DNA of 64,000 bases. Source: Lonicera japonica. Lineage: Eukaryota; Streptophyta; Magnoliopsida; Dipsacales; Caprifoliaceae. The position numbers were made by a program, and so were the translations under genes. Each line of letters starts with the position of its first letter. Position 1 is the stretch's first letter. Under the pieces are notes generated by a model. It did no database searches and was not told where the DNA came from. It saw only the letters and a list, made by a program, of their open reading frames with translations. Positions 22,389 through 45,738 of the stretch are shown piece after piece. The stretch lies in assembly GCA_021464415.1 (NCBI GenBank), contig CM038467.1:23592011-23656010 (forward strand), read 5' to 3'.

Positions 22389-22393
22389 CACAC
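22389..22393. repeat. Tat target-site duplication, left copy (CACAC)
   Basis: CACAC precedes the left LTR and recurs at 40,922-40,926 after the right LTR. Deleting the element and one copy restores the copia reading frame. Confidence 0.95.
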
Positions 22394-23970
22394 TGTGAGA
22401 ATCCGCAAATGCGGCCCCCCCCCCTCGGGTCTCGTCCCCGTTGGTGGTGGGGGTCATGGGACGTCGGAACTGATTCCGTCGTTCCATTTGCTGGAGCGTT
22501 TTCATTGATTCATATCAAGTGTCCCTACGTTCTATTTCTAGATGCAAGGGGGTTCATTCAGAGTCGCCAGTACGTTTTACGAGAAAACGGACAAAAAAGG
22601 TCGTGTAAGAGGAAAGGCTATAGACAAGCCTTTCTTTACACGTTTGTCTGCGAAACCGGGATTCTTATAGGGTTCGGAAACTATATTACGGTTTGGGAAG
22701 GTGTTAAGCACCCATTCCGCCCTTTCGGTCTCTAGTGGTCTTATATGTTTATTCTATGTTGAAAAACTTGGATGCTTTTACCGACAGTCTACTACTTTCT
22801 AAATGAAGAAAAACCCTAATTTGGGAAAACGGGGAAAGGGATGAAAACCTTTGTGTTCCGAGATCCGACGTTTTTGTATTTAAAAGATGTAAATGACAAA
22901 TGACAAAAACCTTTTATTTTTGAAAGAGTATTCCGTATTATTTCCTCAGATAATGACGGTTTTCTCGAGTTGTGATTATTCTGAAAAAGGTTCGGATCTT
23001 TATGTCGGGACTAATTCAATATGGAATTTGAACTCTTTGAGGAGAGTTTATCAGACACGTCGCAGTCTATGAAAAAGACAGGATATGTGGATTTTAATTC
23101 CTAGATAAGTCTTTATCGGTCCGGGGTTTTGAAAACACGGTTTATCCGGACGATAATGTACTTACTCTTCTAGTTTTAAAAGTAGTTTTATCAGGGCCTT
23201 TTGTTTTGAAAACGGTAGACTATTGGTAACTTGACAATAAGTTTATTCAAATAAAACGTGGACAGAATAACAGAAGTAAAACAAGTACACAGATATCTAA
23301 TTTTAAATACTAGAAGGGACTTTCTTTACCTTCCCGACGAGAATAATAATAAGAAAGAAAATATAATACGGCAGAGGGATCTCTGGCGATAGTAATCTTC
23401 TCTTTCTTCAGATATTTCCGAGAAATCGATTCCAGAAACGGAACACGTCGAGTGTTAAAAATAGATTCGAGAATTCTTCAGAAATAAGATAATAGTAAAG
23501 AAATGCTTGACAAAAATCAGATCTAAAGCACCAAATTCTCGGATTCTAATTGCCTCCCTGAACCCTTGGGGGTGTTGGCCTATTTATACTGCTCGGGAGA
23601 GATTGTCGCGCGACATTTCCTTAAAAAAGGAGAATGTCGCGCGACATACGGGAATGTCGCGCGACAAACGGCTGAAGTGATGGTTCTGACAGATTGATGT
23701 GTCAGAAAGTGGTTGGTCTGGTGCAGAGGGGGAATGTCGTGCGACATAGTGGAATTGTCGCGCGACATATCAGGGATTGTCGCGCGACATATCAGGGATT
23801 GTCGCGCGACAATGTGATATGTCGTGCGACAATCTCTCTAAAAAACAAGTTTGTCGGGCGACAAACCCTCCTAGTGTAGTACCGGGTCCTCGGGTGGGTC
23901 CCGGACCCAAAATAGTAGTTCTCGGAGGTCGTTAGGGTTCTTGCGGGGGTCACGGATCGGGGTGTCTACA
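22394..23970 (-). repeat. Tat 3' LTR (left in the window)
   Basis: Bounded by TGTGAGAATCCGC on the plus strand and TGTCTACA at the right end; in element orientation it starts TGTAGACACCCC and ends GATTCTCACA. It differs from the right LTR only by one extra C in the C-run near 22,414. It carries nine copies of the TGTCGCGCGACA palindrome or variants, followed in element orientation by TATAAATA. The region after the TATA box (R plus U5) is long, about 1.16 kb. Confidence 0.95.
23604..23863 (-). promoter_or_regulatory. Nine-copy TGTCGCGCGACA palindrome cluster in the 3' LTR
   Basis: Copies start at 23,604, 23,635, 23,655, 23,735, 23,756, 23,778, 23,800, 23,820 and 23,852. Six are perfect 12-bp palindromes. 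Those at 23,735 and 23,820 read TGTCGTGCGACA and that at 23,852 reads TGTCGGGCGACA. Start-to-start distances are 31, 20, 80, 21, 22, 22, 20 and 32. The cluster lies immediately upstream, in element orientation, of TATAAATA, with 15 bp between the nearest copy and the TATA box. Confidence 0.9.
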
Positions 23971-24665
23971 GACCCTCTCGACTCAAGCTCCTTGCTTGCA
24001 AGGATTTGAGGCGACTGGAAGAGACCTTGATCCATGGCTCCCGCAGGAACTCTAAGAAAGTGTATGCGTATAGAAGTACTTGTGAGTGCCTCCGGAGAGG
24101 GCTTGGCGATTGGTTTGCCTCCGCGGAGGGCTTGTGTTACCTCATTGCCTCTTTCGAGGACTTTCATTTGTTCCACTTTGCGCCTCAGATGGGAGGACTA
24201 CCGTATGCCTCTCTGGGAGGGCTTTGCCTCAGGTGGGAGGACTACCGTTCGTGCCTCTCTGGGAGGGCTTCGCCTCAGGTGGGAGGACTACCGTTCGTGC
24301 CTCTCTGGGAGGGCTTCGTCTCAGGTGGGAGGACTACCGTTCGTGCCTCTCTGGGAGGGCTTCGCCTCAGGTGGGAGGACTACCGTTCGTGCCTCTCTGG
24401 GAGGGCTTCGCCTCAGGTGGGAGGACTACCGTTCGTGCCTCTCTGGGAGGGCTTTTTAGATCTTCTCGCCTCATGTGGGAGGACTACCATTGTGCCTCTC
24501 TGGGAGGGCTTTTTAGATCTTCTCGCCTCATGTGGGAGGACTACCATTGTGCCTCTCTGGGAGGGCTTCGCCTCAGGTGGGAGGACTACCGTTCGTGCCT
24601 CTCTGGGAAGGCTTCGCCTCAGGTGGGAGGACTACCGTTCGTGCCTCTCTGGGAGGGCTTTTAAT
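23971..24665. repeat. 46-bp minisatellite next to the 3' LTR
   Basis: From about 24,180 to 24,662 a unit beginning GCCTCAGGTGGGAGGACTAC and containing CCTCTCTGGGAGGGC repeats about ten times at a 46-bp period. Two longer variant units carry TTTTTAGATCTTCTCGCC. The unit has no stop codon in any plus-strand frame, and 46 is not a multiple of three, so all three frames stay open for 140-220 codons; this is a by-product of the repeat, not evidence for a protein. The stretch just inside the LTR (GAGTCGAGAGGGTC on the minus strand) is only a weak polypurine tract. Confidence 0.85.
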
Positions 24666-25600
24666 CTGTAAGAAGAAAGAAAATTGCCTCTGGGAGGGCT
24701 TCTTGTGAGTACTTTTTGCTTCTGGCGAGAGCTTGTGTTTGTGTTTTGCCTCCGAAGAGGGCTTGTGTTGTGATAAAAAATACTTATTATCTCTCTTTAG
24801 ACCGCTAGAGTGAGAGAGAGAAATCCTCGTGAGGGTGGTAAGAGCTCCTCAAGGTCTAATCTTATCCGGATAACCGTTTTCTTGCGCCTTTCTCGAACTT
24901 TACTCTCATGTTTTCCTCGAGCGAGGATACCTCTCTTGGAAGGCAGTTTTCGATTTTCTCTTGTTTCTCGCAGTGCGATGATTCGAGATTTTTTCCAAAC
25001 CATCTCTCCTTTATCATGCTGAAAAGAAAATTTGTTTTGAAAGTTCAACCTCTGATCTCTGTTCTTTTCTTAGTTTTCTCTTTTGGTGGGCCCACATCGT
25101 ATTCTGTTTTTTCGATGCCCTTATTTCTTCCTCTTTTGGGAAAGACTTTTCCTGGCCTTCTCTGTTTTTGACCAGGAGTCTTTTTGTCCCTTTGTCGTGA
25201 TCAGGAGCCTTACTCACCCAAAACGAAGCCCTGAGCCGGTTTTGGCATAGCTGTCACTTTTGGTGTGGCTCTCCCTGTCACTCTGCATTTCTGTTTCTCT
25301 CGCTCGCTCTGGGCGCTCATACGGGTTCTTTCTCTTTTCTACTTTTTCAATTTTTTCTATTCCCGTTTTATCGTGGCATTCTGCCTTTTCTCTTTGCTGG
25401 TCTCGATCCTTTCTGTGAGATCAGAGACTACTTTAATCGTGGCATTCCGTTCTCGCGTTTTCCGGAGAGATGATTTGGAAGTTTTATTCTTTAAATTTCA
25501 TCCTGAGTGTGCGGTTTTTAGCAATTTTCGAAAACTGCTTCTCTGAAGTACCCCTGCAGGAGATAAAAAATGAGAAAAAAGGTCAAAAATTCAGGGGATG
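24666..25600. other. Non-coding spacer of the Tat element, upstream of the antisense PMD gene
   Basis: No open frame resembles a known family. The sequence is rich in CT and TTTTCT runs, with remnants of the neighbouring minisatellite (CCTCTGGGAGGGCTTC, GAGGGCTTGTGTT) up to about 24,770. It probably holds the distal promoter of the plus-strand gene that starts at 25,838. Confidence 0.5.
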
Positions 25601-25607
25601 GGGGGAT

Positions 25608-25690
25608 TGTCGCGCGACACTTCGGTCCAGGGGTCTTTGTCGCGCGACAATGTGGCCATTTGTCGCGCGACAATCCTCTTCACTATATAA
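25608..25690 (+). promoter_or_regulatory. Promoter of the antisense PMD gene: three TGTCGCGCGACA palindromes and a TATA box
   Basis: Three perfect palindromes start at 25,608, 25,638 and 25,661 (spacing 30 and 23). TATATAA follows at 25,684-25,690, 11 bp after the last palindrome. A pyrimidine-rich leader (CTCTCTCCTTCTCTCTC-like) leads to the ATG at 25,838. The layout matches the LTR and the promoter at 30,078. Confidence 0.85.
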
Positions 25691-25837
25691 TCCCTTGCTG
25701 AGCTCATTCCACCTCATTCTCTCCTCTCTCCTTCTCTCTCTAGCTCTCTTTCTCTCTCTTTTTCTCTTCTTCCGAGCGAGGAAGCCCTGCCGCTTTTCCG
25801 ATTTTTCCGACCTTTTCACATATTCTACCTATACCTG

Positions 25838-28800
25838 ATGGACCCCGCACATCCTGATAGATTGGAGGGTGACCAGGAGGAGGTCACTTTTACAGACGCT
25901 CAGGGCGTTCTCCGCTGCAGCCCTCATCATGACGACTAGGCGGACTTGGATTGGTACGATGAGGATGGGATCAACCGCGGTCGGGCGGTGGTCTATAGGG
26001 ACATTACCCGGGCTGCTCCGGTCCCGGATGTCCCATGGCTCTTGATGGAGCCTGTCTCTCACGAGATTCGCCGTCGATCTCTGGTATGTCTTCCTTTTGT
26101 GTATTTATCTGTTCCATTATTTCTGTTGTTTCCTGCATGTGTTTTTAAACAATGTTAGTATGCATGCCTGCCCAGAAATGATGTCCGATTTAGTGAAACT
26201 CGTACTTTTTACCTGTGATACCCTTTAGAAAATTATAAAATGTACCCTTATAGTCCTATAACGCTCATAATTACCCCAAAGTACCCTCAGGTTTGGAAAA
26301 TTACATAATTTACCTTTATAGCCTTATAACTCTCATAATTATACCAAAGTACCCTCAGGTTTTGGAAAATTACATAATTTACCCCTATAGCCCTATAACT
26401 CTCATAATTACACCAAAGTACCCTTAGGTTTTAGAAAATTACATAATTTACCCCTATAGCCTTATAACTCTCATAATTACACCAAAGTACCCTCAGGTTT
26501 TAGAAAATTACATAATTTACCCCTATAGCCCTATAACTCTCATAATTACACCAAAGTACCCTCAGGTTTTAGAAAATTACATAATTTACCCCTATAGCCC
26601 TATAACTCTCATAATTACACCAAAGTACCCTCAGGTTTTAGAAAATTACATAATTTACCCCTATAGCCCTATAACTCTCATAATTATACCAAAGTACCCT
26701 CAGTTTTTAGAAAATTACATAATTTACCCCTATAGCCCTATAACTCTCATAATTACACCAAAGTACCCTCAGGTTTTAGAAAATTACATAATTTGCCCCT
26801 ATAGCCCTATAACTCTCATAATTACACCAAAGTACCCTCCATAATTACACCAAAGTACCCTCAGGTTTTAGAAAATTACATAATTTGCCCCTATAGCCCT
26901 ATAACTCTCATAATTACACCAAAGTACCCTCAGGTTTTAGAAAATTACATAATTTACCCCTATAGCCCTATAACTCTCATAATTACACCAAAGTACCCTC
27001 AGTTTTTAGAAAATTACATAATTTACCCCTATAGCCCTATAACTCTCATAATTACACCAAAGTACCCTCAGGTTTTAGAAAATTACATAATTTGCCCCTA
27101 TAGCCCTATAACTCTCATAATTACACCAAAGTACCCTCATAACCCCATACTCGTTCATTTGTCTGCAGTGGGTTGGCCGCGGTTGGGGTTCCCCCAACAC
27201 TATATCTTCGGAGTGGCGACGGGCACCGGCCCCTGTCCAGGAGTTGATCTTCGCGACTCCTTTCGGCTCCCTCTTCGACGCCCTCCCAGAGCGAGTATCT
27301 AGGGCGACAGTTTTAGTATCGGCTCTGGCTTGCCACTGGTGGGACACCACCCATACCTTTCACTGGAGCTGGGGGGAGATGACGATGACTCCCCTCGATT
27401 TGTTTGCTTTGACCGGGATCCCTTCAGGGGGGGTCCCCATTCAGATCGATGTCCCCTTGCGTCTGACAGCCGAGGGCATCGTTAGTTCATTAGGATGGTT
27501 TCCGGAGCGACGGAGTTCCGGCGACACGATTCCTCGGGGCGTCTTGGTTACGCGGTTAGCCACAGAGAGGGCTCGACTAGCTGCTTCAGGGGTTCCTATG
27601 ACCCGTCAGGAGGCGCACCAGTATGCCCGCGTCCTCCTTCTACTGACACTTCATGATCTATTCGAGGCTCGTGGTGGGGACACGGCTCATCTTTGGTGGT
27701 TGCCCTATCTTCGGGACTTCAGCCTCATGTTTGACTACGACTGGGGAGGCTTCATTCTTGCAGTCCTTTATGATGCCATGGACCAGGTCTCTCGTCATTT
27801 AGCCCTGAACCTCAAGGGCTTTTCTTTGCTGTGGGAGGTACATTTTTTAGTCTTTCTGTCTTTGCTTCAGTTCTTTGCTCATTACTTGTTGATCATTGCT
27901 GATTTCTTCTATCTTTCCTTTTCAGAGCTGGTTTGTAGCTTATACCCGTCTGGGTCGCGCCCAGGTGGATCTCCTCGTTGAGAACGAGGACCAGTTCCCT
28001 TTTCTCCGCCGATTCATCGCGGGGAACTATAGGGCTCCCTATGTATACCGGACTCGGGAGACCGGAGCTGCTGCTGTTCATGATCTGCGGGAGGAGCAGG
28101 TAAAATATTTTTAGTTTTCTTGCTTTTCCATAGTCAGATAAAGTAGAATATATAAAATACTGAAATAAAATCTTATTCTCTTTTCAGATTGAGTGGGCCC
28201 CTTGGGGTGATCTGGGTCATCATTATGGGTATGGCCGTGCTCTGACTGCCTCGAGGACCAGGCGGCTTATCCGGGATGAGTACGGCCTTCTCTTCTACTT
28301 GGGCGAGAGGGTCATTCGTCAGCATACGCCGTCCCAGTGGCCTCGTGTCCCTTTGTTCCCTCCTGTTCTGATGAGGCGGACGGGTGAGATTGATCAGGTG
28401 ATGGTGCAGGCTTTAGTCGACGGACTCGGTTTCCAGACGTTCGTCGAGGAGGGAGACTACGCTGTTTTTGCTGCCCGTTACCTGATGAGGGAGCCGAAGG
28501 GGACTCGGGGACGGGTCTTCTACGAGAGATACCAGACTTTAGGAGGTGATCCTCATTACATACGGGGACAGACTCATTTAGCTAGGGCGGACCCGGGTCA
28601 TTTGCCACCTGTCCCTGATCAGAGGGACAACATTCCGGATTCTGAGGATGAGGATCCTGAGGGAGAGAGGGATGTTCCTGCTGCGGCTGAGGGCGGTGGT
28701 CGGCCAGAGGGCGAGGGAGGTGATGCGACAGCGGTTCCGGAGCCGCCACCTCAGGCGACACCTACGGGGGAGCAGCGCGCTGAGGGCTTCGAGTTTCCGA

Positions 28801-29760
28801 CCGGCCCTTCCGTGTCTCCGGGGGGCCTTTTTGCTGCTGCTGAGGCTGCTGAGGGGAGAGCGGGATTTTCTGAGAGGTCCTGGGAGCCCGCGGACCTTGG
28901 GGCAGATTTTGATCAGTTTGGGCGGACTTCTCCCGCGGCGGTGACTACTCCTTCTAGTGGGGTACCTCCTTTGGGGGCGACGGCCATGGTGGATCCTCCG
29001 GGGGTCCGAACATATGCTACGTTGACCCCTCTACCGACGACTGTCATGGGGCCTCCCGCCCGATCTCCGGGCTTTGGCGGCTCATCCTCTCGTCCACCCT
29101 TGTTCCCGATCCATGAGGAGGGCGGGTCTACTTCCGCTGGTGTTCCGGCGGGGTCGTCTATTCCGTGGGTAGATCTACCCCCACTCCCCAGGGATATTCC
29201 TTATGTTGGCGCTGGATTACGTCGATATTCCGTCCCGGAGTATCCTCTTCCTGAGGATACTTTTGACTTTTTGGGTGGTCGCCCTGATGGCGAGGTACTT
29301 TTACTTTTTTTTTTTTTTTTTTTCTCGATACCCTTATGTCTATCTCCATCTATTTTGACTGTGCTGATTCTCTTTCATGTCCTTTTTACAGAGAGTGAGC
29401 GTACGGGTGGCAGATCTTCGGGCTTGGTACGCCCAGTACCTTTACAGCTGGAACCTGCTCCAGTATGTCGGTCGAGACCCTCCAGCCTATATGCGTGACT
29501 ATCAGAGGGCTATCGACATCTCTTTACGGCCGGACGACCCCCTGACTTCCTCCCATGCCCGGACGGATTCTCGGAGGAGCAGTAGTCGGACTTCCAGGCG
29601 TTCCCGATCGTCGGTGATCCGTCCTACGGCACCGGTCCAGTCCACGGGGCCTTCTCAGGCGGCAGTTCCATCTGTTCCCAGCGTCCCAGTTGTTGATCTT
29701 ACCCCCGAGGAGGGCTCGGGAGATAGTGGGAGCGTGTCAAAACGCGCCCGAGTAGATTAG
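25838..29760 (+). CDS. Plant-mobile-domain (aminotransferase-like) protein gene, five exons, antisense in the Tat element; one in-frame stop
   Basis: Predicted exons are 25,838-26,083, 27,169-27,837, 27,926-28,099, 28,188-29,294 and 29,392-29,760. All introns are GT..AG and phase 0, giving 854 codons before the stop. Exons 2-4 hold the plant mobile domain (about residues 95-420), with WWDTTHTFHWSWGEMT and PLDLFALTGIPSGG, the family's hallmark; a Pro/Gly/acidic-rich linker follows. The last exon has an Arg/Ser-rich stretch and ends SVSKRARVD, a possible nuclear signal. PMD proteins are plant-specific and occur both in transposons and as host genes needed for silencing; their biochemical activity is not settled. 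In this copy codon 34 is TAG (25,937-25,939). The next in-frame ATG is about 36 codons later, so either a shorter protein is made or this copy is null. Intron 1 holds a 69-bp minisatellite. Confidence 0.8.
26217..27140. repeat. 69-bp minisatellite inside intron 1 of the PMD gene
   Basis: About 13 head-to-tail units, each containing GTACCCTCAGGTTTTAG, AAAATTACATAATTTACCCC and CTATAACTCTCATAATTAC, occur at a 69-bp period (for example 26,351, 26,420, 26,489). The first unit is the most diverged, and a 29-bp partial unit sits near 26,835. The array is far more AT-rich than the flanking exons and has stops in every frame. Confidence 0.9.
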
Positions 29761-30077
29761 TTTTCCCTTTTCTGCATTTTAGTGTTAGTTTGGACAGATA
29801 CATGTTTAGACAGATATTTAAAAACTGTTCTTCTTTTTGGTTTTATAAAATATCTTTATCTGTGTTTGATTATACTTTTATTCTCTGTCTGTGCAAGATA
29901 TATACATATATATATATAAGAGTCGGTAATTTAAAAGTCATACCTTGTAGTGTAGTGATACTTATGTTTCCTGCAAAAAAGAACAAAGTGAGAACAGAAA
30001 AGCATCCAGAAGTGATTCTTTTGGCAAAGATGACCATTATGTATAAGGAAAAAAGTAGGGTGCCCCCCAGATGGGTT

Positions 30078-30187
30078 TGTCGCGCGACAATCTCTCCTGG
30101 ACATGGGTTTGTCGCGCGACACTTCCCCCTGAAAATGGGTTTGTCGCGCGACAAACAGGTACAGGACCCTCTTTTTTGCTATAAATA
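30078..30187 (+). promoter_or_regulatory. Promoter of the antisense DUF7745-like gene: three palindromes and a TATA box
   Basis: Three perfect TGTCGCGCGACA copies start at 30,078, 30,110 and 30,142, exactly 32 bp apart. TATAAATA is at 30,180-30,187 and the ATG at 30,226, so the leader is very short. The two outer copies extend to TTGTCGCGCGACAA. Confidence 0.85.
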
Positions 30188-30225
30188 CACCCATCTTCCT
30201 TCCTTCATCCCCACACCTCTCCAAA

Positions 30226-31481
30226 ATGTCTTCCTACCATACCAACTCTGATTTTTCTTATGTTAAAGCTCGAGATGCTCTGATATCTTCTGAAAATGGT
30301 TTGAACTTTGGTGCATTCAGTCCTTTGGCGGGCTGGTGCCATCGTCCTGTAGATTTCTCCTTTCTGTTAGGTGCCTTGTATTTCTGGAGTCCTGCGGACC
30401 ATCTCTTCCGTTTTGGACTAGATGAGCTCTGCCCAACCTATGAGGAGTTCTCCTGGCTGTTACGTTCTGACGTTCGTCTCCGATGGCAGTTCCTATAGAA
30501 GGAATCGGTCCCCGCAACATGCTAATTGCTCTGTTAGCCATTCCCCAAGTGGCCTGCGATGGTTTCATTGTCGACGGTCTCCTTGACCTCCACAAAATGG
30601 TGAGGTTCTTTCATCGTTATGAAGATAGGGCCTCTTACGGCGTGGGGCGTACTGCAGCGGCCCTGATTTGCCTGGTTTCTGATATGCTGCTGGTGACGGG
30701 TTCTTCCCGTGTTGATCCGACTATCTTGAGTCTGATTTACCAGGCTAGAAATGGGGAGTCTATAGTGCCGATCATTCTTGCAGAGACCTTGAATGGTCTT
30801 GATGATGTTCAACGGGGGGCCTCGCCCTTCTTTCGGGGGAGCCCGCGTCTGCTATACATGTGGCTACTAGAGCGCTTTCGATCGGTGGGTTTCAGCGGAG
30901 TTCGGCTCGACAATCCGACTCATTTCTTCCATCGGCCTCTCTTTGGTGCTTTGACCATGTCTTCCTCTGATTGGACGGTGTGGTTTTCGGAGAACTTTCG
31001 GGCTATCCGGTGGAACATTCCTTGGTGGAAGCTGAGGGCGATGGTACTTAGCACCGGGGGTCAGAACTACGTTCGGCTCCGCGGGCTCTGGTTTACCTCC
31101 TTTTATCTCCCAGGTCGTCTTCTTCGGCAGTTCAACGTTCCTCAGGATATTCCTCTCGGCCTGAACAACTTCTCCTCTGAGTCCAAATTTGTGACCCAGC
31201 ATGTCTCCCTATCAGTAGAGAGGATGTGGCGTGCTCGATTGACTCGGCGGTTTAACTATGCTCGTTTTGGTATTTCCAGGCCCCTCCGGGCTGACATTAT
31301 CCGCTCTTGCTGGCAATCTCTAGAAGGAGAGCTGACTGATGACCCCTTTCAAATGGAGTGGTTCCGATTCATGGATTCTGAGCCTACAGAGGATGGCATT
31401 GTCTTTGCGTACCAGATTTTGGATGAGGCTCGAATTGATTTGGCCGCTGAGGACCCAGTGTGGCCAACCCCTAGGGATTAG
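30226..31481 (+). CDS. DUF7745-like plant protein, antisense in the Tat element, with a frameshift near 30,480
   Basis: The frame from ATG 30,226 encodes an N-terminal part (about 90 codons, including FRFGLDELCPTYEEFSWLL) and ends at TAG 30,496-30,498. The overlapping frame from about 30,483 to 31,481 (332 codons) carries the rest: a helical region around LICLVSDMLLV, then SPRLLYMWLLERF, NIPWWKLRAMVL and RLLRQFNVPQDIP. The order resembles the plant DUF7745 proteins often found next to transposons and distantly related to the plant mobile domain; no function is established. Both parts read as one protein, so a small indel near 30,470-30,495 has split it, unless the second frame starts on its own at ATG 30,483. 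No introns are evident. It ends 228 bp from the convergent gag-pol stop. Confidence 0.7.
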
Positions 31482-31708
31482 TTTCTTCTTTGTATGCTGT
31501 ACTTCCTTTGTAACTCTCGGTGTTCTGAACCACCTCTTTAATAATATATGAAGGGACTTTTTATGAGAAATAAATTTCTTTACAAAGCTTTAAACCGGGC
31601 CTGAAGTCACTTCTCAGGTTGCCTACGTTCCCCCCTTTTTGATTTTTTCCAGAAAATACAATATTCGAGTTGGGGCTCAGGTTTACGTAGTTCTTATACA
31701 TGTCGTGC
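31482..31708. other. Convergent intergenic spacer between the DUF7745-like gene and gag-pol
   Basis: Both genes point into this 227-bp spacer. AATAATATATGAAGG and AGAAATAAATTTC (about 31,540-31,576) are possible plus-strand polyadenylation signals. If the antisense transcript reads through, it would overlap the 3' part of pol. Confidence 0.5.
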
Positions 31709-34700
31709 TTATTGATAATACTTCTTCAGTCGGTCCATGTTGACTGGTGAATGTAGTAACTGCCCGTCTAGGTCAGTGAGTATAGCGGCGCCCCCTGTAT
31801 TGATTTCTTTGACGATATACGGCCCTGTCCACTTCTGCCCGAACTTTCCCCTCGGATCTCTGGCTGGCTCTCGAATTTCTTTCAACACGATGTCATTTTC
31901 AGTGATACCCCGAGTCCTCACTCTCTGGTTAAATGCTCGAGCGATTCTCTTCTGATATCCTTGATGGTGGTATGCGGCTTTCAATCTTTTCTCATCTAGT
32001 AAGGCTAGCTCGTTATAACGTGCCCGAACCCACTCCAGTTCATTGACCTGATTCTCTAGCATTACTCTGAGGGAAGGGACCTCTAACTCGACAGGGAGGA
32101 CTGCTTCCATCCCGTATGTAAGCGAGAACGGGGTTGCCCCGGTAGAGACCCTTTCGGTGGTGCGGTATCCCCACAATGCATATGGTAATTTCTCCGGCCA
32201 GTCCCGGCAGGTGTCGGTCATCTTGCTTAGGATATTCTTCAAATTCTTGTTGGCGGCTTCAACTGCCCCATTGGTTTGTGGTCTATATGGCGAAGATTTG
32301 TGTCGGGTGATACCGTATTCCTCCATGACTGTATTAGCTTCTCCTTCGAAGTGGGTGCCGTTATCTGAGATGATCTCGTGTGGGACCCCATATCGGCAGA
32401 CAATATTCCTTTTGATGAATTGGGCAACTTTCCTGGCATCCAGGGTTTGGTAAGATTCGGCTTCCACCCATTTGGTGAAGTAGTCGATGGCTACTAGTAT
32501 GAATTCATGGCCGTTGCTGGCTTTGGGTGAGACTTTCCCAATGACGTCAATTCCCCAGGCTGAAAAAGGCCAGGGAGCAGTCATGTTGTACAACTCTTTT
32601 GGAGGAAGCTTCTGGGACTTAGCATAAATTTGGCATTTGTGACAACGGCGTACATGATCAGCGCAGTCAGTTTGTAGGGTAGACCAGAAATACCCTTGCC
32701 TGATGATCTTGCGGGCAAGCGTATGCCCGCTCATATGAGGTCCGCAATCGCCCCCATGTATCTGATCCATCATTCTAACTGATTCTTCTTCGGTGAGACA
32801 TTGAAGATGAGTCCCGTCGTAGTTCCTCTTATATAATCTTCCGGCACAGAGTATGAATCCTGATGCTAGTCTCCTGAGTGTGACCCGTGTTCTCTTGTCT
32901 GCTTTCTCGGGATACTGATGGTTCTTCAGCAGGTTCCAGATATCATAAAACCAAACGGTTGAGTCACCGTCTTTTTCAATTTCCACCTCAAGGGTCATGC
33001 AGTGCGCGGGTCCTGATTTCTTTTGTACCGTGAGGGTTATTTCTTCCATCCCCTCCGGAATATCGATCATAGATGCCAGGGTTGCCAATGCGTCAGCAAA
33101 ACTGTTCTGGGACCTGGGGATATAGTAAAACTCCACACGCTCGAACCTTCCTGCGACTTCTTCTAGTCGGGCGAGGTAAGGGACCAATTTCTCATCTCTG
33201 ATCTTCCATTCCTTCAGAACTTGATGGACCACTAGTGCTGAATCTCCGTATACCTGTATCCTCCTTATACCCCTTTGAAAAGCGATCTCTAACCCGAGTA
33301 TGCAGGCTTCATATTCGGCCATATTGTTGGTGCAGAAGAAGTCCAGTCGATATGATACCGGGGAGTGAGTTTGGTCTGGAGAGACTAACAGGATGCCTAT
33401 CCCGTTTCCGTTCCGATTGGCGGCCCCGTCAAAGTACAACCTCCAGTCTTCATTGATCTCGACGTTCATGATGGTTTCGTCCGGGAATTCGGCTTCTTCT
33501 ATCATGTCTCCCAATATCGGATTGTGGGCCAGGTAATCAGCTATGATCTTGCCTTTGACTGCCTTCTGGGTCATGTAGGTGATGTCGAATTCGGAGAGTA
33601 GAAATAACCATTTTGCCATTCGATTCGAGAGAGCCGGTTTCTCGAAGAGGTATTTCAACGGATCAATCCGTGATGCCAGGATGACTGGAAAAACTAGCAT
33701 GTAGTGCCGTAGTTTCTGTGTTACCCAGACGAGAGCGGTACACGATTTTTCCAATGGTGTGTAGTTTATCTCAAATGGGGATAGCTTTTTGCTGAGGAAA
33801 TAGATGGCTTGCTCCTTCCGGGTATCGGTGAGGTGTTGGGCTAGCATTGCTCCCGCGGCTGAATCAGTGACGGTTAGGTATAGGATTAGTGGTAGTCCGG
33901 TCTGAGGCGGGGCTAACACTGGGGGCTTGGAGAGGTAATCTTTGATTTTGTCAAAAGCCTCCTGGCATTGATCGTTCCATTCTCCTGTTGAAGACTTCCT
34001 CAGGAGTTTGAAGATGGGTTCGCACTTTTGAGTGAGCTGAGAGATAAACCTACTGATGTACTGCAGATTACCCAAAAAACCCCGGATTTCTCTCTCGGTA
34101 CGAGGCTCGGGCATGTCTTGGATAGCTTGAACTTTAGCGGGGTCCACCTCGATTCCTTTCTTACTGACGACATATCCCAGGAGTTTTCCTTTGGTTACCC
34201 CGAACACACATTTCTGCGGATTGAGTCTCATCTGATACTGGCGGAGCCGATCAAAGAAGGCTCGCAAGGCTGGTACGTGGCCTTCCCTCTCTTTTGACTT
34301 GATTATCATGTCGTCTACATACACCTCTACTTCTTTGTGAATCATGTCGTGAAAGATAGCCGTAGCTGCCCTCTGATATGTTGCCCCGGCGTTCTTCAGC
34401 CCAAACGGCATAACGGTGTAGCAGTATGTTCCCCACGGTGTGATAAATGCTGTTTTCTCCTGGTGATCCGGGTGCATCTTGATCTGGTTATATCCGGCAA
34501 AACCATCCACAAATGACTTCAGGGCGTGGTTGGCAGTATTATCTACTATCAAATCGATGTTGGGCAATGGAAAATCGTCCTTTGGACAAGCTTTATTGAG
34601 ATCCCGGTAATCCACACACATGCGGACTTTCCCGTTAGCCTTTGGAATAGGCACGATGTTGGCTAACCACGAGGGGTACTCGATCACCCGTAAGAATCCC

Positions 34701-37700
34701 ACACTCAGTTGTTTCATTACTTCTTCTTTCACTTTCAAGGACCATTCTGGCGTAAGTTTCCTCAGCTTCTGTTTGACGGGCCTAAGTTCTGGATTGGTGT
34801 GTATTTCGTGCATGACTATCTGACTGTTCAAACCCGGCATATCTGCATAAGACCAGGCGAAGACATCCACATACTCTTTCAGAGTTTGTGTGAATTCTTC
34901 TCTCTCTGTCCCACTTAGGCTTGCCCCAATGCGGACCTCTTTTCTTTCCTCCTCTGTTCCGAGGTTAATCACAAGAGTGTCTCCTTCCTCGCTTTGTATA
35001 CGTTGCTCCTCCCGTTCAGGGTGTTCGTTCATTCTTTCCAATTCCATATAAGCAATTACAGAATTAAAAATAACAGGATAACGCAAAATAGACTCTTCTT
35101 TATTGATACTAGTATTTATAGGTACAAGTTTAAAAAGTTCATTTAGGAGTGACTCCTTCCTATCCTTACCCTCACTCTTATCTCTCACCCTTACAATTTC
35201 GCTCTTTTCCCTTTCCCCTTGGTAGTCTGGATCAGCGTATATCAAGTGTACAGGGTCGTCTCCTGGCTCATCATCTCCCAGAGCCATGATGTCGAAGAGA
35301 TCTCCGATCATTTCTTCCTCTTCGCCTTTCATGTCTTCACTTTCTTCCTTCGGCCCGATTGTCAACTTGGTAGCGAAGCTGTGTACGGTGTTTTCTTTGA
35401 TATATAGGTCCTCTTCATAGAAGATTTCCCACCCAGGAAGGTTCTCTCCGTCGCTGTTTCTCCAAGGCTCCTGGAAGCCGCAAAAGGGGAAGTCCTCTCC
35501 TTCTTTGACAAAGAACCCGTTCAGAGAGCTGAAACTCGGATACTGATGCCCTCGACCCCTTTTTTGTTGATCGTCCTCTTCAGTGTGTTGGTACCCCAAA
35601 CCTTCCCTCTCGTACCTTGCTACTGGTTCCAATGCTTGAAGTAGTCCTGGTTGTCCCATTCCCAGACCGGCTCCAGGCAAGTATTTCATCATTCTCAACA
35701 TATTTGTAATCTTGGTGCTGAGACCGGGGATATTGTCAGGGGGAAGATACCTGATTGTCTGGGTGCTAAGAGTTTGCACTTGAGGCTCGTAAGAAAAGCC
35801 TCCTAACTGTATGCTCTGGCTCCCGATTCCCAAAACTGGTAACTCCATATCCGCCAAGGTCCTTTCAGGATCTCCTTGGATGGTAATTATGTTCCCTTCA
35901 AACGGTATCTTGATCTTTTGGTGCAAGGAGGAGGGGAGTGCTCCTATGTCGTGTAGCCATGCTCTTCCCAACAGTAGGTTAAAACTGGAAGGAATGTCTA
36001 TGATTTGAAAGTCGGCCGGGAAGCTTCCGGGACCAACCATGAGATCAAGTTTCAGAGACCCCAGAACGGCCCTCCTGGTATTATCATAGGCCCTGACGGT
36101 TACAGCGGATGGTGAGAGCTCTGAATCTGAGATACCCAAGCATCTGGCAGTCTTTAGGGGGCAGACATTTATGGTCGACCCATTGTCGATGAGAACTTGT
36201 GGCAAGATCTTCCCTCGGGTTCGGACGGTGATATGGAGAGCCAGGCTGTGTTTTCTCCCCAACGGAGACAAGTCTTCATCTGAAAATGACAGACTTCTTT
36301 GGACTGTGAGTGACCCGATCATGTTTGGCAGTTGTTCGGGCGTGGAGTCCGGCGATATGACAGCCTCATCCAGGAGTTTAATGAAAGCGGTCCTGTGAGG
36401 TTTGGAGGCAACCAAGAGGCCCCAAATGGTGATGTGTGCCTGGGTTTTCTTCAACTGTTCCAGTACTCGGTCTTCTCCTACTTCTTTTGGAGGCGGTGAT
36501 TTTTCGGCATCCATCGGTGGTGGCTGGTATACCTTTCCTGAGCGGGTAATCTGTTGTATCCAAAGGGATGTTGGGTCTGATCCCTCTGAAGTTTCTGACG
36601 ACTCTGGTTCTGCCGACCAACTAAAAGTCCCGGGGGAGGTTTCTGTCATACAGATTGTCTCCTTATGAGGGGGGCGGGGTTTCCATGGTTGTTTTTTCTT
36701 GTCCTGGGTCCATCCTATCCCAGCTTTCCCAGGATTGGTTTTGATGGTGAGGGGTTGCGAGATCCCCTGATTTGTCTTTCCTAAGCCCTGCCCAGGTAGG
36801 AAGTTCATCTTGGCCATCCATTGGTCAATTATTGGGTTGAGGCCTGGGGCAACTTGTGCTTTTGCCGATAGCATAACGGGTGCCTTATAGGCTGGATCGT
36901 CCCGAATGCGTCCTACGGGATCAAAGCCTTCATCAGTGGTTAAGGCGTTAATTCCTGCAGGTGGAGCATGATTGGGGAGGGGGTTGTTGGTAACATTGGG
37001 CCCGCCGGGTGCGGGGATGGTTCCGGCTTCAATGAGGTCCTGGATACGATGGCGGAGAGCTAAACAACGTTCCGTGTCATGGCCTGCCGCCTGATGGTAC
37101 GCACAGTTCTCATTCATTCTCCAAGTGTTGGGAATAGGATTTGGTGGAGGGCGTGGGTTGAGTGGGGTGACTAGTCCGGCTTTTTGGAGTAGTTCCAGGC
37201 TTTTGACCAGAGTAGTGGGGAGGGTGCAAAAATTTCTCCTTTTCTTGACCTCGGTGTTTGAAGAGTCTCCCTGCGTAGGCCAACTCATTGGGGGGACTTG
37301 CGGTGACTGCTGAAAGGGGTTTTGTTGATATGGGTACGAGCTTAGTTGGTTTACGGCTGGAGTGGCCGTCTTTCTTCCAGTGTAAGAGGCCTTCTTGGTA
37401 TCCGTGTCTGCCTTTCTGGTCAATTCTTCCTCTACCTGTGACCCCATACTCAACAGGGCTCTGAAGTGTGGGAATACATGCTTTCCCATGCAGTTCAATA
37501 CAGCTGGAGTAAAATTCTTCTGTATGATTTCTAACTGCTCTTCTTCGTCGGGCCGTTTGGACATTTGGGATGCCATTTCCCTCCAGCGGGTGACAAAGTC
37601 GCTGAAGCTTTCTTTCTCACCTTGCTTGGGCATTTCCAGGTGTTTACGGGTAATTTTCAAATTCTCGTTGGACCCGTACTTGGTCATGAATTCTTTGACG

Positions 37701-38593
37701 ATATCCCCCCAAGTTTTCGTGTGGTGTTTCTCTAGGTCGAAGAACCATCTCAGGGCTGCCCCCGTGAGAGTCATGTGAAAAGCCTGAGCCAGCTCCGGCT
37801 CTCCACAGCCGGACACTTGCATGGATCTGATGTAGGATTGGAGATGGGTTTTGGGGGGTGTAGTACCAGTGAATTTGGTGATAGAGGGGAGCTTAAATCC
37901 TTGAGGTAGTCTGGCTTCTGGGTAGAGGGAAAAGGCGTTCATGTCTGTGATCTCGTCTGCCCCTTTCATCAGAGAAACACCTCTTTGCAGAACCTTCATC
38001 TGCTCTTTCAATTTCTTCATTTCTTCGCTCTCTCTTGACACCTCATCGGGCTGTTCCCGGGCTATCATCGATTCTGCGTATACTGCCCGGAGTCGGTTGA
38101 TGTCTGGGTACTCATTGGGAGGGGCTATTGGGGCTGGTGGAATAGGTCTTGCGGGGACTTGTGGCCATGGTTGATATTGGGGATCGAGGCCTTGCTGAGG
38201 TTGTGGCCAGACGATGGGTGGCTCTTGTTGTTGGTATGTGGGGCCTGAATCTGGGGCCCATTGGTTCTGATTGTTGGGGTCGGTTTGAACGGGACCGGCC
38301 ATGTTGGGGCCCGTTTGGGGTGGATTAGTTCCTTGGATTGGGGGAAGTATTTGTGAAGATTGCCCTTGATTCGGATCTCGATTCGGTGGTAGTTGCTCAA
38401 ACCCGGGTGGTGCGGTCCGTTCGGCTGACAACTCTTCCATTCGAATCCGGGTGTTCTGTTGCTCACCTGTGAGGCTTGCCAAATTCATGCTGACGGTCAT
38501 CAACAAACGGTGCATCTCGGCTAAAGTCGGTTGAACTGCAGACGCCTCGGCTAGGCTCTGATTTGTCTCCTGATTCTCTCGTCCATCGGCCAT
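31709..38593 (-). CDS. gag-pol: Tat-lineage Gag-Pol polyprotein, 2294 residues, uninterrupted
   Basis: One frame from ATG 38,593 encodes all core functions. Rough residue positions are: Pro/Gln-rich N-terminus (1-170); retrotransposon Gag with TWGDIVKEFMTKYG (about 230-400); a CAYHQAAGHDTERC knuckle (about 490); a G-patch-like segment MNFLPGQGLGKT (about 595); aspartic protease with LIDNGS (about 800); a second G-patch-like segment YLPGAGLGMGQPG (about 970); reverse transcriptase with YVDD (about 1425); RNase H (about 1560-1660); a second, archaeal-type RNase H starting YFDGAANRNG (about 1717), diagnostic of Tat/Ogre; an HHCC zinc finger (about 1945-1985); and integrase with Asp in WGIDV, Asp in SDNGTHFEG and Glu in VEAANKN (about 2013, 2076, 2111). 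No stop or frameshift is present and all catalytic motifs are intact, so this copy could be functional. Confidence 0.95.
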   Translation of the reverse strand: MADGRENQETNQSLAEASAVQPTLAEMHRLLMTVSMNLASLTGEQQNTRIRMEELSAERTAPPGFEQLPPNRDPNQGQSSQILPPIQGTNPPQTGPNMAGPVQTDPNNQNQWAPDSGPTYQQQEPPIVWPQPQQGLDPQYQPWPQVPARPIPPAPIAPPNEYPDINRLRAVYAESMIAREQPDEVSRESEEMKKLKEQMKVLQRGVSLMKGADEITDMNAFSLYPEARLPQGFKLPSITKFTGTTPPKTHLQSYIRSMQVSGCGEPELAQAFHMTLTGAALRWFFDLEKHHTKTWGDIVKEFMTKYGSNENLKITRKHLEMPKQGEKESFSDFVTRWREMASQMSKRPDEEEQLEIIQKNFTPAVLNCMGKHVFPHFRALLSMGSQVEEELTRKADTDTKKASYTGRKTATPAVNQLSSYPYQQNPFQQSPQVPPMSWPTQGDSSNTEVKKRRNFCTLPTTLVKSLELLQKAGLVTPLNPRPPPNPIPNTWRMNENCAYHQAAGHDTERCLALRHRIQDLIEAGTIPAPGGPNVTNNPLPNHAPPAGINALTTDEGFDPVGRIRDDPAYKAPVMLSAKAQVAPGLNPIIDQWMAKMNFLPGQGLGKTNQGISQPLTIKTNPGKAGIGWTQDKKKQPWKPRPPHKETICMTETSPGTFSWSAEPESSETSEGSDPTSLWIQQITRSGKVYQPPPMDAEKSPPPKEVGEDRVLEQLKKTQAHITIWGLLVASKPHRTAFIKLLDEAVISPDSTPEQLPNMIGSLTVQRSLSFSDEDLSPLGRKHSLALHITVRTRGKILPQVLIDNGSTINVCPLKTARCLGISDSELSPSAVTVRAYDNTRRAVLGSLKLDLMVGPGSFPADFQIIDIPSSFNLLLGRAWLHDIGALPSSLHQKIKIPFEGNIITIQGDPERTLADMELPVLGIGSQSIQLGGFSYEPQVQTLSTQTIRYLPPDNIPGLSTKITNMLRMMKYLPGAGLGMGQPGLLQALEPVARYEREGLGYQHTEEDDQQKRGRGHQYPSFSSLNGFFVKEGEDFPFCGFQEPWRNSDGENLPGWEIFYEEDLYIKENTVHSFATKLTIGPKEESEDMKGEEEEMIGDLFDIMALGDDEPGDDPVHLIYADPDYQGEREKSEIVRVRDKSEGKDRKESLLNELFKLVPINTSINKEESILRYPVIFNSVIAYMELERMNEHPEREEQRIQSEEGDTLVINLGTEEERKEVRIGASLSGTEREEFTQTLKEYVDVFAWSYADMPGLNSQIVMHEIHTNPELRPVKQKLRKLTPEWSLKVKEEVMKQLSVGFLRVIEYPSWLANIVPIPKANGKVRMCVDYRDLNKACPKDDFPLPNIDLIVDNTANHALKSFVDGFAGYNQIKMHPDHQEKTAFITPWGTYCYTVMPFGLKNAGATYQRAATAIFHDMIHKEVEVYVDDMIIKSKEREGHVPALRAFFDRLRQYQMRLNPQKCVFGVTKGKLLGYVVSKKGIEVDPAKVQAIQDMPEPRTEREIRGFLGNLQYISRFISQLTQKCEPIFKLLRKSSTGEWNDQCQEAFDKIKDYLSKPPVLAPPQTGLPLILYLTVTDSAAGAMLAQHLTDTRKEQAIYFLSKKLSPFEINYTPLEKSCTALVWVTQKLRHYMLVFPVILASRIDPLKYLFEKPALSNRMAKWLFLLSEFDITYMTQKAVKGKIIADYLAHNPILGDMIEEAEFPDETIMNVEINEDWRLYFDGAANRNGNGIGILLVSPDQTHSPVSYRLDFFCTNNMAEYEACILGLEIAFQRGIRRIQVYGDSALVVHQVLKEWKIRDEKLVPYLARLEEVAGRFERVEFYYIPRSQNSFADALATLASMIDIPEGMEEITLTVQKKSGPAHCMTLEVEIEKDGDSTVWFYDIWNLLKNHQYPEKADKRTRVTLRRLASGFILCAGRLYKRNYDGTHLQCLTEEESVRMMDQIHGGDCGPHMSGHTLARKIIRQGYFWSTLQTDCADHVRRCHKCQIYAKSQKLPPKELYNMTAPWPFSAWGIDVIGKVSPKASNGHEFILVAIDYFTKWVEAESYQTLDARKVAQFIKRNIVCRYGVPHEIISDNGTHFEGEANTVMEEYGITRHKSSPYRPQTNGAVEAANKNLKNILSKMTDTCRDWPEKLPYALWGYRTTERVSTGATPFSLTYGMEAVLPVELEVPSLRVMLENQVNELEWVRARYNELALLDEKRLKAAYHHQGYQKRIARAFNQRVRTRGITENDIVLKEIREPARDPRGKFGQKWTGPYIVKEINTGGAAILTDLDGQLLHSPVNMDRLKKYYQ

Positions 38594-39324
38594 TTCAGGT
38601 ATGCTTGGTCTTACTAGTCTTCCGGTATGATCTCGACCGGCCCAACCTTCCAGACTGACGCCGCTTTATGGCTGTAGACGAAACCACGTGGCGAAGATGA
38701 AGGGAGACTATGATGTGACTCGATTTTTGCCAAAAGAATCACTAAAAATGGTCGAGAGAAAACCTCGGAAAATAGGTGTGGTAAAGTAGGCCGTAAGGTG
38801 GTACATCCCCTACAGCTGTATGACAAGTGTTTTAACTGACTCAATCTTAGATGCAGCGCAGGTGTTCGAACGGTTAAGGCTTCAGGCTCCCTCCTTTTTG
38901 GCAAGACCTTGCGATATACCCCAAGGGCGGGTACGTGCAAGAATCTTTTGATATACTTCCCGGGTACGTGAGTGTTCTCGTCACTCGATATACCTCGGGG
39001 GCGTACTTGGCCAAGGAGAGTGGAAGTAAATGCTTTCGGTTTATGTTGGCCCAAGCAAGCCAACTCCCTACTCACTTATAATACTTCCGAGGGTTTGGGG
39101 TAAATTCACACTCGTAGAACCAATGCATGATTTGTGATAGTGCGTGTAAAGTTCGAAAGGTTGGTTTCACAAATATCATTATCTTTATTACGTCTTTTCG
39201 AAAAACTCCCATTTTTTAGGAAAAGGTTTCTTCTCAATCAATTAACATGAGTAGGGAAAGCAGTAAAAGCAAGTTTTCAACAGATAAACAAAGGTCCACA
39301 TATAAGAGTCTAGTTTTCTAATGG
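38594..39324 (-). other. Leader of the Tat element between primer-binding site and gag
   Basis: The region holds an open stretch of about 150 codons on the minus strand (39,075-38,614) that ends 20 bases before the gag ATG. It lacks a convincing ATG at its start and resembles nothing I know, so it is more likely part of a structured, packaging-related leader than a gene. Tat/Ogre elements sometimes carry an extra frame upstream of gag, so it is recorded here. Confidence 0.4.
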
Positions 39325-39344
39325 TGTCCCCAGCAGAGTCGCCA
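39325..39344 (-). other. Tat primer-binding site
   Basis: One base after the 5' LTR the minus strand reads TGGCGACTCTGCTGGGGACA. TGGCGACT-type sites are usual in Tat/Ogre elements, where an arginine tRNA has been proposed as primer. The match to a particular tRNA cannot be tested here. Confidence 0.75.
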
Positions 39345-40531
39345 CTGTGAGAATCCGCAAATGCGGCCCCCCCCCTCGGGTCTCGTCCCCGTTGGTGGTG
39401 GGGGTCATGGGACGTCGGAACTGATTCCGTCGTTCCATTTGCTGGAGCGTTTTCATTGATTCATATCAAGTGTCCCTACGTTCTATTTCTAGATGCAAGG
39501 GGGTTCATTCAGAGTCGCCAGTACGTTTTACGAGAAAACGGACAAAAAAGGTCGTGTAAGAGGAAAGGCTATAGACAAGCCTTTCTTTACACGTTTGTCT
39601 GCGAAACCGGGATTCTTATAGGGTTCGGAAACTATATTACGGTTTGGGAAGGTGTTAAGCACCCATTCCGCCCTTTCGGTCTCTAGTGGTCTTATATGTT
39701 TATTCTATGTTGAAAAACTTGGATGCTTTTACCGACAGTCTACTACTTTCTAAATGAAGAAAAACCCTAATTTGGGAAAACGGGGAAAGGGATGAAAACC
39801 TTTGTGTTCCGAGATCCGACGTTTTTGTATTTAAAAGATGTAAATGACAAATGACAAAAACCTTTTATTTTTGAAAGAGTATTCCGTATTATTTCCTCAG
39901 ATAATGACGGTTTTCTCGAGTTGTGATTATTCTGAAAAAGGTTCGGATCTTTATGTCGGGACTAATTCAATATGGAATTTGAACTCTTTGAGGAGAGTTT
40001 ATCAGACACGTCGCAGTCTATGAAAAAGACAGGATATGTGGATTTTAATTCCTAGATAAGTCTTTATCGGTCCGGGGTTTTGAAAACACGGTTTATCCGG
40101 ACGATAATGTACTTACTCTTCTAGTTTTAAAAGTAGTTTTATCAGGGCCTTTTGTTTTGAAAACGGTAGACTATTGGTAACTTGACAATAAGTTTATTCA
40201 AATAAAACGTGGACAGAATAACAGAAGTAAAACAAGTACACAGATATCTAATTTTAAATACTAGAAGGGACTTTCTTTACCTTCCCGACGAGAATAATAA
40301 TAAGAAAGAAAATATAATACGGCAGAGGGATCTCTGGCGATAGTAATCTTCTCTTTCTTCAGATATTTCCGAGAAATCGATTCCAGAAACGGAACACGTC
40401 GAGTGTTAAAAATAGATTCGAGAATTCTTCAGAAATAAGATAATAGTAAAGAAATGCTTGACAAAAATCAGATCTAAAGCACCAAATTCTCGGATTCTAA
40501 TTGCCTCCCTGAACCCTTGGGGGTGTTGGCC

Positions 40532-40539
40532 TATTTATA
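40532..40539 (-). promoter_or_regulatory. TATA box of the Tat 5' LTR
   Basis: TATAAATA on the minus strand, 15 bp downstream of the last palindrome. The same box is at 23,581-23,588 in the 3' LTR. Transcription would start about 30 bases further on, near 40,500. Confidence 0.75.
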
Positions 40540-40554
40540 CTGCTCGGGAGAGAT

Positions 40555-40814
40555 TGTCGCGCGACATTTCCTTAAAAAAGGAGAATGTCGCGCGACATAC
40601 GGGAATGTCGCGCGACAAACGGCTGAAGTGATGGTTCTGACAGATTGATGTGTCAGAAAGTGGTTGGTCTGGTGCAGAGGGGGAATGTCGTGCGACATAG
40701 TGGAATTGTCGCGCGACATATCAGGGATTGTCGCGCGACATATCAGGGATTGTCGCGCGACAATGTGATATGTCGTGCGACAATCTCTCTAAAAAACAAG
40801 TTTGTCGGGCGACA
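40555..40814 (-). promoter_or_regulatory. Nine-copy TGTCGCGCGACA palindrome cluster in the 5' LTR (gag-pol promoter)
   Basis: The same nine copies as in the other LTR, shifted by 16,951 bases. This copy sits upstream of the TATA box that would start the genomic RNA, so it is the functional upstream region of gag-pol. Confidence 0.9.
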
Positions 40815-40926
40815 AACCCTCCTAGTGTAGTACCGGGTCCTCGGGTGGGTCCCGGACCCAAAATAGTAGTTCTCGGAGGTCGTTAGGGTTCTTGCGGGGG
40901 TCACGGATCGGGGTGTCTACACACAC

Positions 40927-45567: not shown

Positions 45568-45738
45568 TTGAATATAAGAGACAAGTGAGGTGGTGCTTGT
45601 TGCTTGTTGCTTGTGGAATTGGAAGAAGCATTGGTTGATTGTCCTATGGGTTGAAGAATTTTACTAGGGTTTGATTTTGAAGTTGCTTTATTAAGTTACT
45701 GTGAAAGAAAATCATTGGGTTCTATTTGGGGAGGATCA

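Follow-up and report, generated by a model that had tools for sequence, protein, structure and literature searches.

Why does one palindrome stand beside promoters on both strands of a single retrotransposon? The question is raised by a 64,000-nucleotide stretch of the Lonicera japonica genome (contig CM038467.1, positions 23,592,011 to 23,656,010; hereafter the window). The window holds a Ty3/gypsy element of the Tat lineage, 18.5 kb long and nested in a Ty1/copia element. This element has gag-pol on one strand, two antisense genes on the other, and arrays of the 12-bp palindrome TGTCGCGCGACA close to three TATA boxes. Judged from sequence, the family palindrome in these phased arrays is likely to be an operator for one two-fold-symmetric DNA-binding protein, which would probably activate all three predicted promoters together.

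Arrays of one palindrome lie upstream of three predicted promoters

There are 18 exact copies of TGTCGCGCGACA in the window, all within the Ty3 element. Each long terminal repeat (LTR) has six, and three lie at each of two internal clusters (25,608-25,672 and 30,078-30,153). Six more copies have one mismatch, three per LTR. The motif scan agrees with a first-pass annotation of this DNA, which had counted nine copies per LTR (six perfect and three variants) and three in either internal cluster. The arrays and their TATA boxes are as follows.

40555..40814, no strand: array of nine motif copies in the U3 of the 5' LTR, six of them exact and three one-mismatch, from the motif scan
40532..40539, minus strand: TATAAATA box in the 5' LTR, 15 bp past the array, predicted promoter of gag-pol
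23604..23863, no strand: array of nine motif copies in the U3 of the 3' LTR, from the motif scan
23581..23588, minus strand: TATAAATA box of the 3' LTR, from the TATA scan
25608..25672, no strand: array P1, three exact copies, spacing 30 + 23 bp, from the motif scan
25684..25690, plus strand: TATA box of antisense gene 1, predicted promoter, from the TATA scan
30078..30153, no strand: array P2, three exact copies, spacing 32 + 32 bp, from the motif scan
30180..30187, plus strand: TATAAATA box of antisense gene 2, predicted promoter, from the TATA scan

The gap from array to TATA box, recomputed, had the values given before: 15 bp (LTR, minus strand), 11 bp (box at 25,684) and 26 bp (box at 30,180). 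By random placement in the element, a TATA box at most 40 bp downstream of all three clusters has a P of 5.5e-5 (200,000 trials). The earlier statement that the window has no further copy also holds, even at two mismatches (24 of 24 copies inside the element; 0.30 expected). No copy of TGTCGCGCGACA appeared in 100 dinucleotide shuffles of the window, and Markov models of order 0-3 predict 0.0001-0.0009. Conversely, the claim that a 12-bp palindrome is not expected even once in 64 kb must be dropped, as 34 distinct ones occur in the window. Leaving AT repeats aside, the most frequent after TGTCGCGCGACA has 2 copies. The exceptional feature is one non-AT-repeat palindrome present 18 times, not the presence of 12-bp palindromes.

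With the motif masked, the surroundings of the three clusters had borderline similarity (scores reached by 9, 20 and 3 of 300 shuffles). One 20-bp spacer is apparently common to U3 and P2 (P2a; 12/20 identical, P 0.00025 uncorrected), and P2 spacers a and b share 14/20 positions. The common spacer suggests that the U3 and P2 arrays, which face opposite ways, may come from one ancestral array. Duplicate spacers would also fit passive arrays, in which a palindrome that arose by chance was spread by tandem duplication within a hypervariable U3 and amplified by hitch-hiking. TRF indeed finds 22- and 32-bp tandem arrays at the motif clusters. The same site at three promoters argues against passive spread, as do conservation and phasing (below), and we regard it as highly improbable.

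The palindrome is tied to one retrotransposon family

Outside the window, however, the palindrome is common. The 886-Mb genome has 29,561 copies of TGTCGCGCGACA, against 1 for a control with the letters read backward, and the retrotransposon family is present in thousands of copies. The motif is followed by TATAWAWA at 5-35 bp in 2,837 forward and 2,811 reverse cases (control, 0 and 1). Typed by reading gap length and sequence, 100 listed cases were U3 (69), P2 (20) or P1 (11). At 75-105 bp the counts were 823 and 788; most of the listed cases were read as copies further upstream in the same arrays, and this count does not discriminate between hypotheses.

Where do individual copies lie? We took 13 loci of 10 kb each around the first motif places listed on contig 1 (L001-L005 excluded). 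All 53 motif copies were in U3 (41), P1 (9) or P2 (3) of members 66-90% identical to the window element. Given no misses among 53, up to about 5% of copies could lie outside the family. The first-pass annotation had proposed a whole-genome scan for the motif and its link to TATA boxes; the outcome was a motif that is common but tied to the family and to TATA boxes, rather than one without such links.

Other plant retrotransposons have multiplied the sites of host stress factors. Similarly, a host transcription factor may bind the palindrome, its site having been multiplied by the family; we hold this to be a serious candidate, short of an even chance. The half-site TGTCGC is a TGTCNN element of the kind recognised by auxin response factors (ARFs), here as two half-sites facing each other without a spacer. 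In Arabidopsis roots TGTCGC reporters show activity, and TGTCNN pairs are bound by ARF dimers, but the main ARF pattern is an inverted repeat 7-8 bp apart (PMC10690724), whereas the spacing here is 0. In addition, TGTCNN alone leaves the CGCG centre and the A/T flanks of the site unexplained. For a host factor, sites at host genes would be expected too, yet every sampled copy was in a family element. The CAMTA (VCGCGB) and E2F consensus sites do not fit the core.

Altered forms of the site were also seen. At L028 (C1:17,317,520-17,318,080) and contig 1 17,309,620, two like U3 promoters are about 8.3 kb apart, and the distal array has altered palindromes, e.g. TGTAGCACTACA and TGTCGCGCTACA; the L028 element is probably a shorter relative. 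A variant suggested by this locus, TGTAGCGCTACA, has only 9 copies genome-wide against 4 for its control, so there is no second amplified operator of exactly that form. In a P1 copy (L031; contig 1, about 16,473,100), one site is shortened to TGTCGCGACA, with one CG unit lost, and is still palindromic. The motif-chosen L022 (contig 1, about 10,394,100-10,394,500) has a U3 with eleven exact copies and a spacer identity of 0.49 to the window. Loci L019-L038 were picked for an exact site adjoining a TATA box.

Sites are better conserved than their spacers in U3s chosen without the motif

A second sample was drawn by the LTR start, TGTAGACACCCCGATCCGTGAC, which occurs 3,402 times in the genome (control, 0). 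Every fifth of 100 listed places was taken, giving 20 U3s of 450-470 bp each on contig 1. The exact 22-bp LTR start was required, which favours well-kept copies, and three of the 20 (L040, L041, L043) overlap with the motif-chosen U3s. All 20 have 3-9 sites and a TATA box 15-17 bp past the last site (15 bp in 17, 16 bp in 2 and 17 bp in 1). At up to two mismatches they contain 143 sites, 79 exact and 53 with one change. Seven control palindromes of the same composition gave no site in the 20 U3s.

Agreement with the window was 0.925 for the motif, 0.766 for spacers and 0.952 for the TATA region, and the motif exceeded the spacers in 19 of the 20 U3s. In the motif-chosen set, the TATA-proximal site being excluded, the values were 0.90 for the motif and 0.68 for spacers, the motif being higher in 19/19. 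That set comprises 19 U3s besides the window's; the TATA pattern did not pick up those in L017, L026 and L027. That sites outlast spacers, despite three mutable CpGs each, argues against passive arrays.

The half-sites are flanked by A/T at position -1 in 241 of 264 cases and at -2 in 254 of 264; G was never found at -2. Because these positions lie outside the palindrome, the full site is probably about 16 bp, WW-TGTCGCGCGACA-WW.

Neighbouring sites are in helical phase

In the sample chosen without the motif, 102 of 123 neighbour spacings were 20-22, 30-34 or 42 bp. The other 21 were a large gap of 72-102 bp, and none was 23-29 or 35-41 bp. The 102 spacings (18-46 bp) gave a mean cosine of 0.858 at 10.5 bp per turn, and 0 of 50,000 uniform random draws did as well. 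A period scan from 7 to 16 bp was best at 10.5 bp. It used a wider, partly motif-chosen set with near-duplicate spacers removed (37 spacers of 18-46 bp; L001-L005 and spacings above 130 bp excluded). In this wider set, single spacings of 51 and 65 bp, plus the large gaps, fall outside the phasing test. Genome-wide, exact pairs numbered 5,053 at 30-34 bp against 50 at 24-29 bp. A further 578 were at 35-40 bp; the 50 listed are all 40 bp apart and nearly all, by reading, skip a 20+20 middle site. Neighbouring sites are about 2, 3 or 4 helical turns apart. Phasing points to a DNA-bound, two-fold-symmetric factor rather than to an RNA fold. For passive arrays, it is awkward that 31-bp spacings are in phase though not multiples of the 20-22-bp unit, and that phase is kept within sub-arrays across 15 layouts in 20 U3s.

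Copies of a palindrome might also pair in genomic RNA, giving hairpins for packaging, dimerisation or small-RNA production, with the promoter link secondary. All three arrays are in the 3' half of the genomic RNA and fold far better than shuffles (z -14.0, -6.8 and -4.7). Moreover, maize Sirevirus palindrome clusters attract small RNAs (PMC10760457). However, random palindromes at the same sites fold equally well or better (U3, -149 against a native -130.5 kcal/mol, the native array holding three imperfect copies). The fold therefore follows from palindromy, and fold scores do not discriminate between hypotheses. The window's U3 has no compensating variants, and a 10.5-bp spacing combined with a fixed TATA distance obeys the geometry of DNA rather than that of RNA. 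The RNA folding seems to be a by-product, and we consider an RNA role improbable.

A putative operator for sense and antisense transcription

How might such arrays work? Each palindrome copy would be bound by a protein dimer. Several dimers, on one helix face and near the TATA box, would cooperate and, lined up in this way, could activate transcription. Because a palindromic site works in either orientation, one module can serve promoters on both strands. With three CpGs in each site, binding would be expected to respond to DNA methylation. The first-pass annotation had proposed one factor controlling sense and antisense transcription together. This is still the best reading of what we observed directly: the arrays, the restriction of the motif to the family in sampled loci (53/53), TATA adjacency (20/20 U3s), conservation above the spacers (0.925 against 0.766) and phasing. 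Its self-contained circuit is at odds with this copy, in which predicted gene 1 has a premature stop and gene 2 a frameshift.

Several points weigh against an activating operator. Sites are inexact in 64 of 143 cases. Among the one-change sites, 36 of 53 are CpG transitions (C-to-T or G-to-A), 24 of them G7 to A; as expected, such changes fit methylated copies, and the sites are retained despite this mutability. The U3 upstream of the array (0.867) and a 68-nt gap (0.845) agree with the window more than spacers do (0.766), the motif being higher still (0.925). Among ten motif-chosen U3s, one (L026) has a single site. Family arrays share ancestry, with only 15 distinct layouts among the 20 U3s, so sites and spacings are not independent. 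The phasing test covers spacings of 18-46 bp. The large U3 gap is 79-81 bp in 16 of 123 spacings, or about 7.6 turns, which puts distal and proximal sub-arrays on roughly opposite helix faces. P1 (TATA gap 11 bp) is less well phased with its TATA box than are U3 (15) and P2 (26). Finally, a bound factor may repress in place of activating.

The U3 gap also contains a second inverted repeat.

23684..23707, no strand: TTCTGACA-N8-TGTCAGAA, within the 80-bp U3 gap; a similar one in 15 of 20 motif-independent U3s

Its counterpart in the 5' LTR is at 40,635-40,658, and it is possibly a second operator. Some family forms are altered symmetrically in both arms (TGACTCA...TGAGTCA, L021 and L025).

The antisense genes as a candidate source of the binder

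25838..29760, plus strand: antisense gene 1, five predicted exons, plant mobile domain (PMD; PF10536, E 1e-17 in exon 2, above the Pfam cut-off)
25,838-26,083; 27,169-27,837; 27,926-28,099; 28,188-29,294; 29,392-29,760, plus strand: predicted exons of antisense gene 1, introns phase 0, GT-AG
30226..31481, plus strand: antisense gene 2, PMD-like / DUF7745-like, frameshifted at about 30,471-30,498 in the window copy

Both genes sit between pol and the 3' LTR, on the strand opposite gag-pol. Gene 2 matches PMD at E 1.4e-4, below the Pfam cut-off (homologue, 1.6e-5), and its DUF7745 match is weak. In the window copy both genes appear broken, gene 2 by its frameshift and gene 1 by a premature stop lying in frame within predicted exon 1. 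Elsewhere in the genome, 118 of 120 scored matches to gene 2 have no internal stop (the best 120 of 4,115 candidates; one is the window copy). The closest protein found, from Lonicera macranthoides, is 97% identical, and its start is, by residue reading, consistent with two motif copies at 32-bp spacing. The four predicted GT-AG introns of gene 1 are kept inside a retrotransposon. This would be possible because the genomic RNA holds them in reverse orientation. The predicted first intron is largely a 69-bp tandem repeat (26,224-27,139).

Are the three promoters linked in other copies? The U3 array of L021 (contig 1 near 10,307,188) has largely different spacers (identity 0.57). The same element has kept three exact copies and a TATATAA box at P1 (L039), and two sites, one exact, with the TATAAATA box at P2 (L060). 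Both internal regions were picked by position in the element, not by motif. In five P1 and five P2 loci, selected by an exact TATA-proximal site, the spacings 30/23 (two to three sites) and 32 (two sites) recur. The window's P2 has a third site, which probably arose by local duplication.

Either of the element's two own proteins, PMD or PMD-like, may be the binder and act in trans on every copy of the family, a proposal to which we give nearly even odds. A host factor ranks next, and the two are about equally likely. In favour of an element-encoded binder are family confinement, the operator at the PMD genes' own promoters, a mostly open gene 2 and, by analogy, the VANC precedent (below). Control of this kind would need to work in trans, because both antisense genes of the window copy appear broken yet its LTRs differ by only one base. 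Put fully, a dimer of an antisense-gene PMD protein, cooperative on one helix face, would bind TGTCGCGCGACA and, in each copy of the family within the nucleus, switch on the sense promoter and the two antisense promoters. Such a self-encoded regulon is a tentative proposal, to which we attach rather less than an even chance.

Element-encoded binding faces objections of its own. The broken antisense genes of this recent copy weaken it, and a structure model of a gene-2 homologue (P0001) had a mean pLDDT of 33 and was discarded. Four Sirevirus elements have palindromic LTR arrays and no extra gene (PMC2829016), which also favours a host factor. In the literature consulted, no DNA binding by PMD was found.

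If the regulon is indeed self-encoded, a plant retrotransposon would possess a transactivator loop of retroviral style, and the plant mobile domain would have a DNA target for the first time. Were the binder a PMD protein, a plant-wide domain without a known biochemical role would gain a function and a test. The site of about 16 bp is a bait for finding the binder. As a sign of protein-DNA cooperation at genome scale, helical phasing counted in thousands of natural site pairs is unusual.

The element and its surroundings

22394..40921, gag-pol on the minus strand: whole Ty3/gypsy (Tat lineage) element, from LTRs, target-site duplication, primer-binding-site-like sequence and domains
39346..40921, minus strand: 5' LTR (1,576 bp), from LTR comparison
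22394..23970, minus strand: 3' LTR (1,577 bp), from LTR comparison
31709..38665, minus strand: gag-pol, a single open frame of 2,318 residues stop to stop, with Gag, G-patch, reverse transcriptase (RT), RNase H, RVT_3 and integrase

The target-site duplication is CACAC (5 bp), at 22,389-22,393 and 40,922-40,926. The sole difference between the LTRs is one base in a C-run. RVT_3 occupies residues 1752-1863, between RT_RNaseH (to 1693) and integrase (from 1964), and is a candidate for the additional RNase H (aRH) of the Tat lineage. Tat elements of Ty3/gypsy have an aRH in the polyprotein, in angiosperms between RNase H and integrase (PMC6317226); taking RVT_3 as aRH, the window element has the same order. 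Among the 120 matches listed of 2,296 at E 1e-20 or better, polyprotein identity was 49-67% and those named by organism were from plants, so that plant Ty3 polyproteins are the nearest relatives among the matches listed. Searches of viral contigs gave no confirmed relative (0 in a double-motif search, none confirmed by a pol search or by a 12-row pol alignment). Genome contigs gave one distant locus (L001, 29% identity), which was not used.

Ogre elements have a sense-orientation extra open reading frame (ORF) upstream of gag. No sense-strand extra ORF was found there in the window element; among frames of at least 100 residues, the region has only one of 153 residues overlapping the gag-pol frame. 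A PMD-bearing extra ORF occurs in 57% of Ogre elements, and Transposase_28 in 23% of Retand (PMC6317226). The window element resembles Ogre in this respect, through PF10536 in antisense gene 1.

A 46-bp tandem array (24,181-24,660) adjoins the 3' LTR. Further along, two adjacent open frames (45,655-46,881 and 49,256-50,530) have Myb/SANT-like DNA-binding domains (PF13837) of the trihelix type.

Comparison with known systems

The motif string itself led to one paper in the literature, on chicken PRMT4, unrelated by its title. The closest precedent, by analogy, is the palindromic repeats of Sireviruses. Their RM boxes are palindromic, mostly CpG-bearing motifs with 8-32 copies per element (Bousios et al. 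2010; PMC2829016). As here, a palindrome cluster in the LTR precedes the TATA box by a short distance, and more copies lie upstream of an extra gene. Conversely, 12 of 13 RM cores are CGG-CCG, whereas the window element has CGCG. Sireviruses are Ty1/copia, whereas this element has the Ty3 domain order; it would work similarly and is not a member. Their extra gene (ENV) follows pol and its promoter is not identified, whereas each of the two antisense genes of this element has its own TATA box. Helical phasing is not described for RM boxes in the available text of the same paper.

VANDAL elements are DNA transposons. Like the family described here, VANDAL of Arabidopsis, with its VANC anti-silencing system, has a short motif repeated in the non-coding parts of one transposon family; its binder, VANC, is element-encoded and acts in trans on VANDAL family copies (PMC5735166, PMC10398659). 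The VANDAL motif, YAGTATTAY, is non-palindromic, unlike TGTCGCGCGACA. VANC carries DUF1985; the window element has PMD and PMD-like / DUF7745-like proteins and no DUF1985.

The PMD proteins MAIN and MAIL1 are required for expression of Arabidopsis genes that share the DOWN promoter motif (PMC7156037, PMC9899485). As printed for the MORC1 promoter, this motif is CATGCAGTTT, which is unrelated to the palindrome, and the available text reports no direct binding there.

Antisense additional ORFs are known in the Tat elements Grande (gene23), RIRE2 and Retand (PMC7264820, PMC11963269). For Grande gene23, transcription is driven by a promoter of its own, located upstream, and a regulatory role has been suggested. 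Retand antisense genes are mostly Transposase_28 (TRP28), whereas antisense gene 1 of the window carries PMD. The available parts of these papers report no operator common to LTR and antisense genes for Grande, RIRE2 or Retand. They do describe Tat antisense genes as widespread and their function as an open question; a shared operator ties two such genes to the gag-pol promoter. We found no report, in the available portions of open-access full texts, of an operator shared by sense and antisense genes, or of helical phasing, in a plant retrotransposon. LTR palindrome arrays near TATA boxes (Sireviruses) and Tat antisense genes, one with its own promoter, were already known. What is new is that the predicted promoters of two antisense genes share a putative operator with the LTR, and that its helical phasing has been counted genome-wide.

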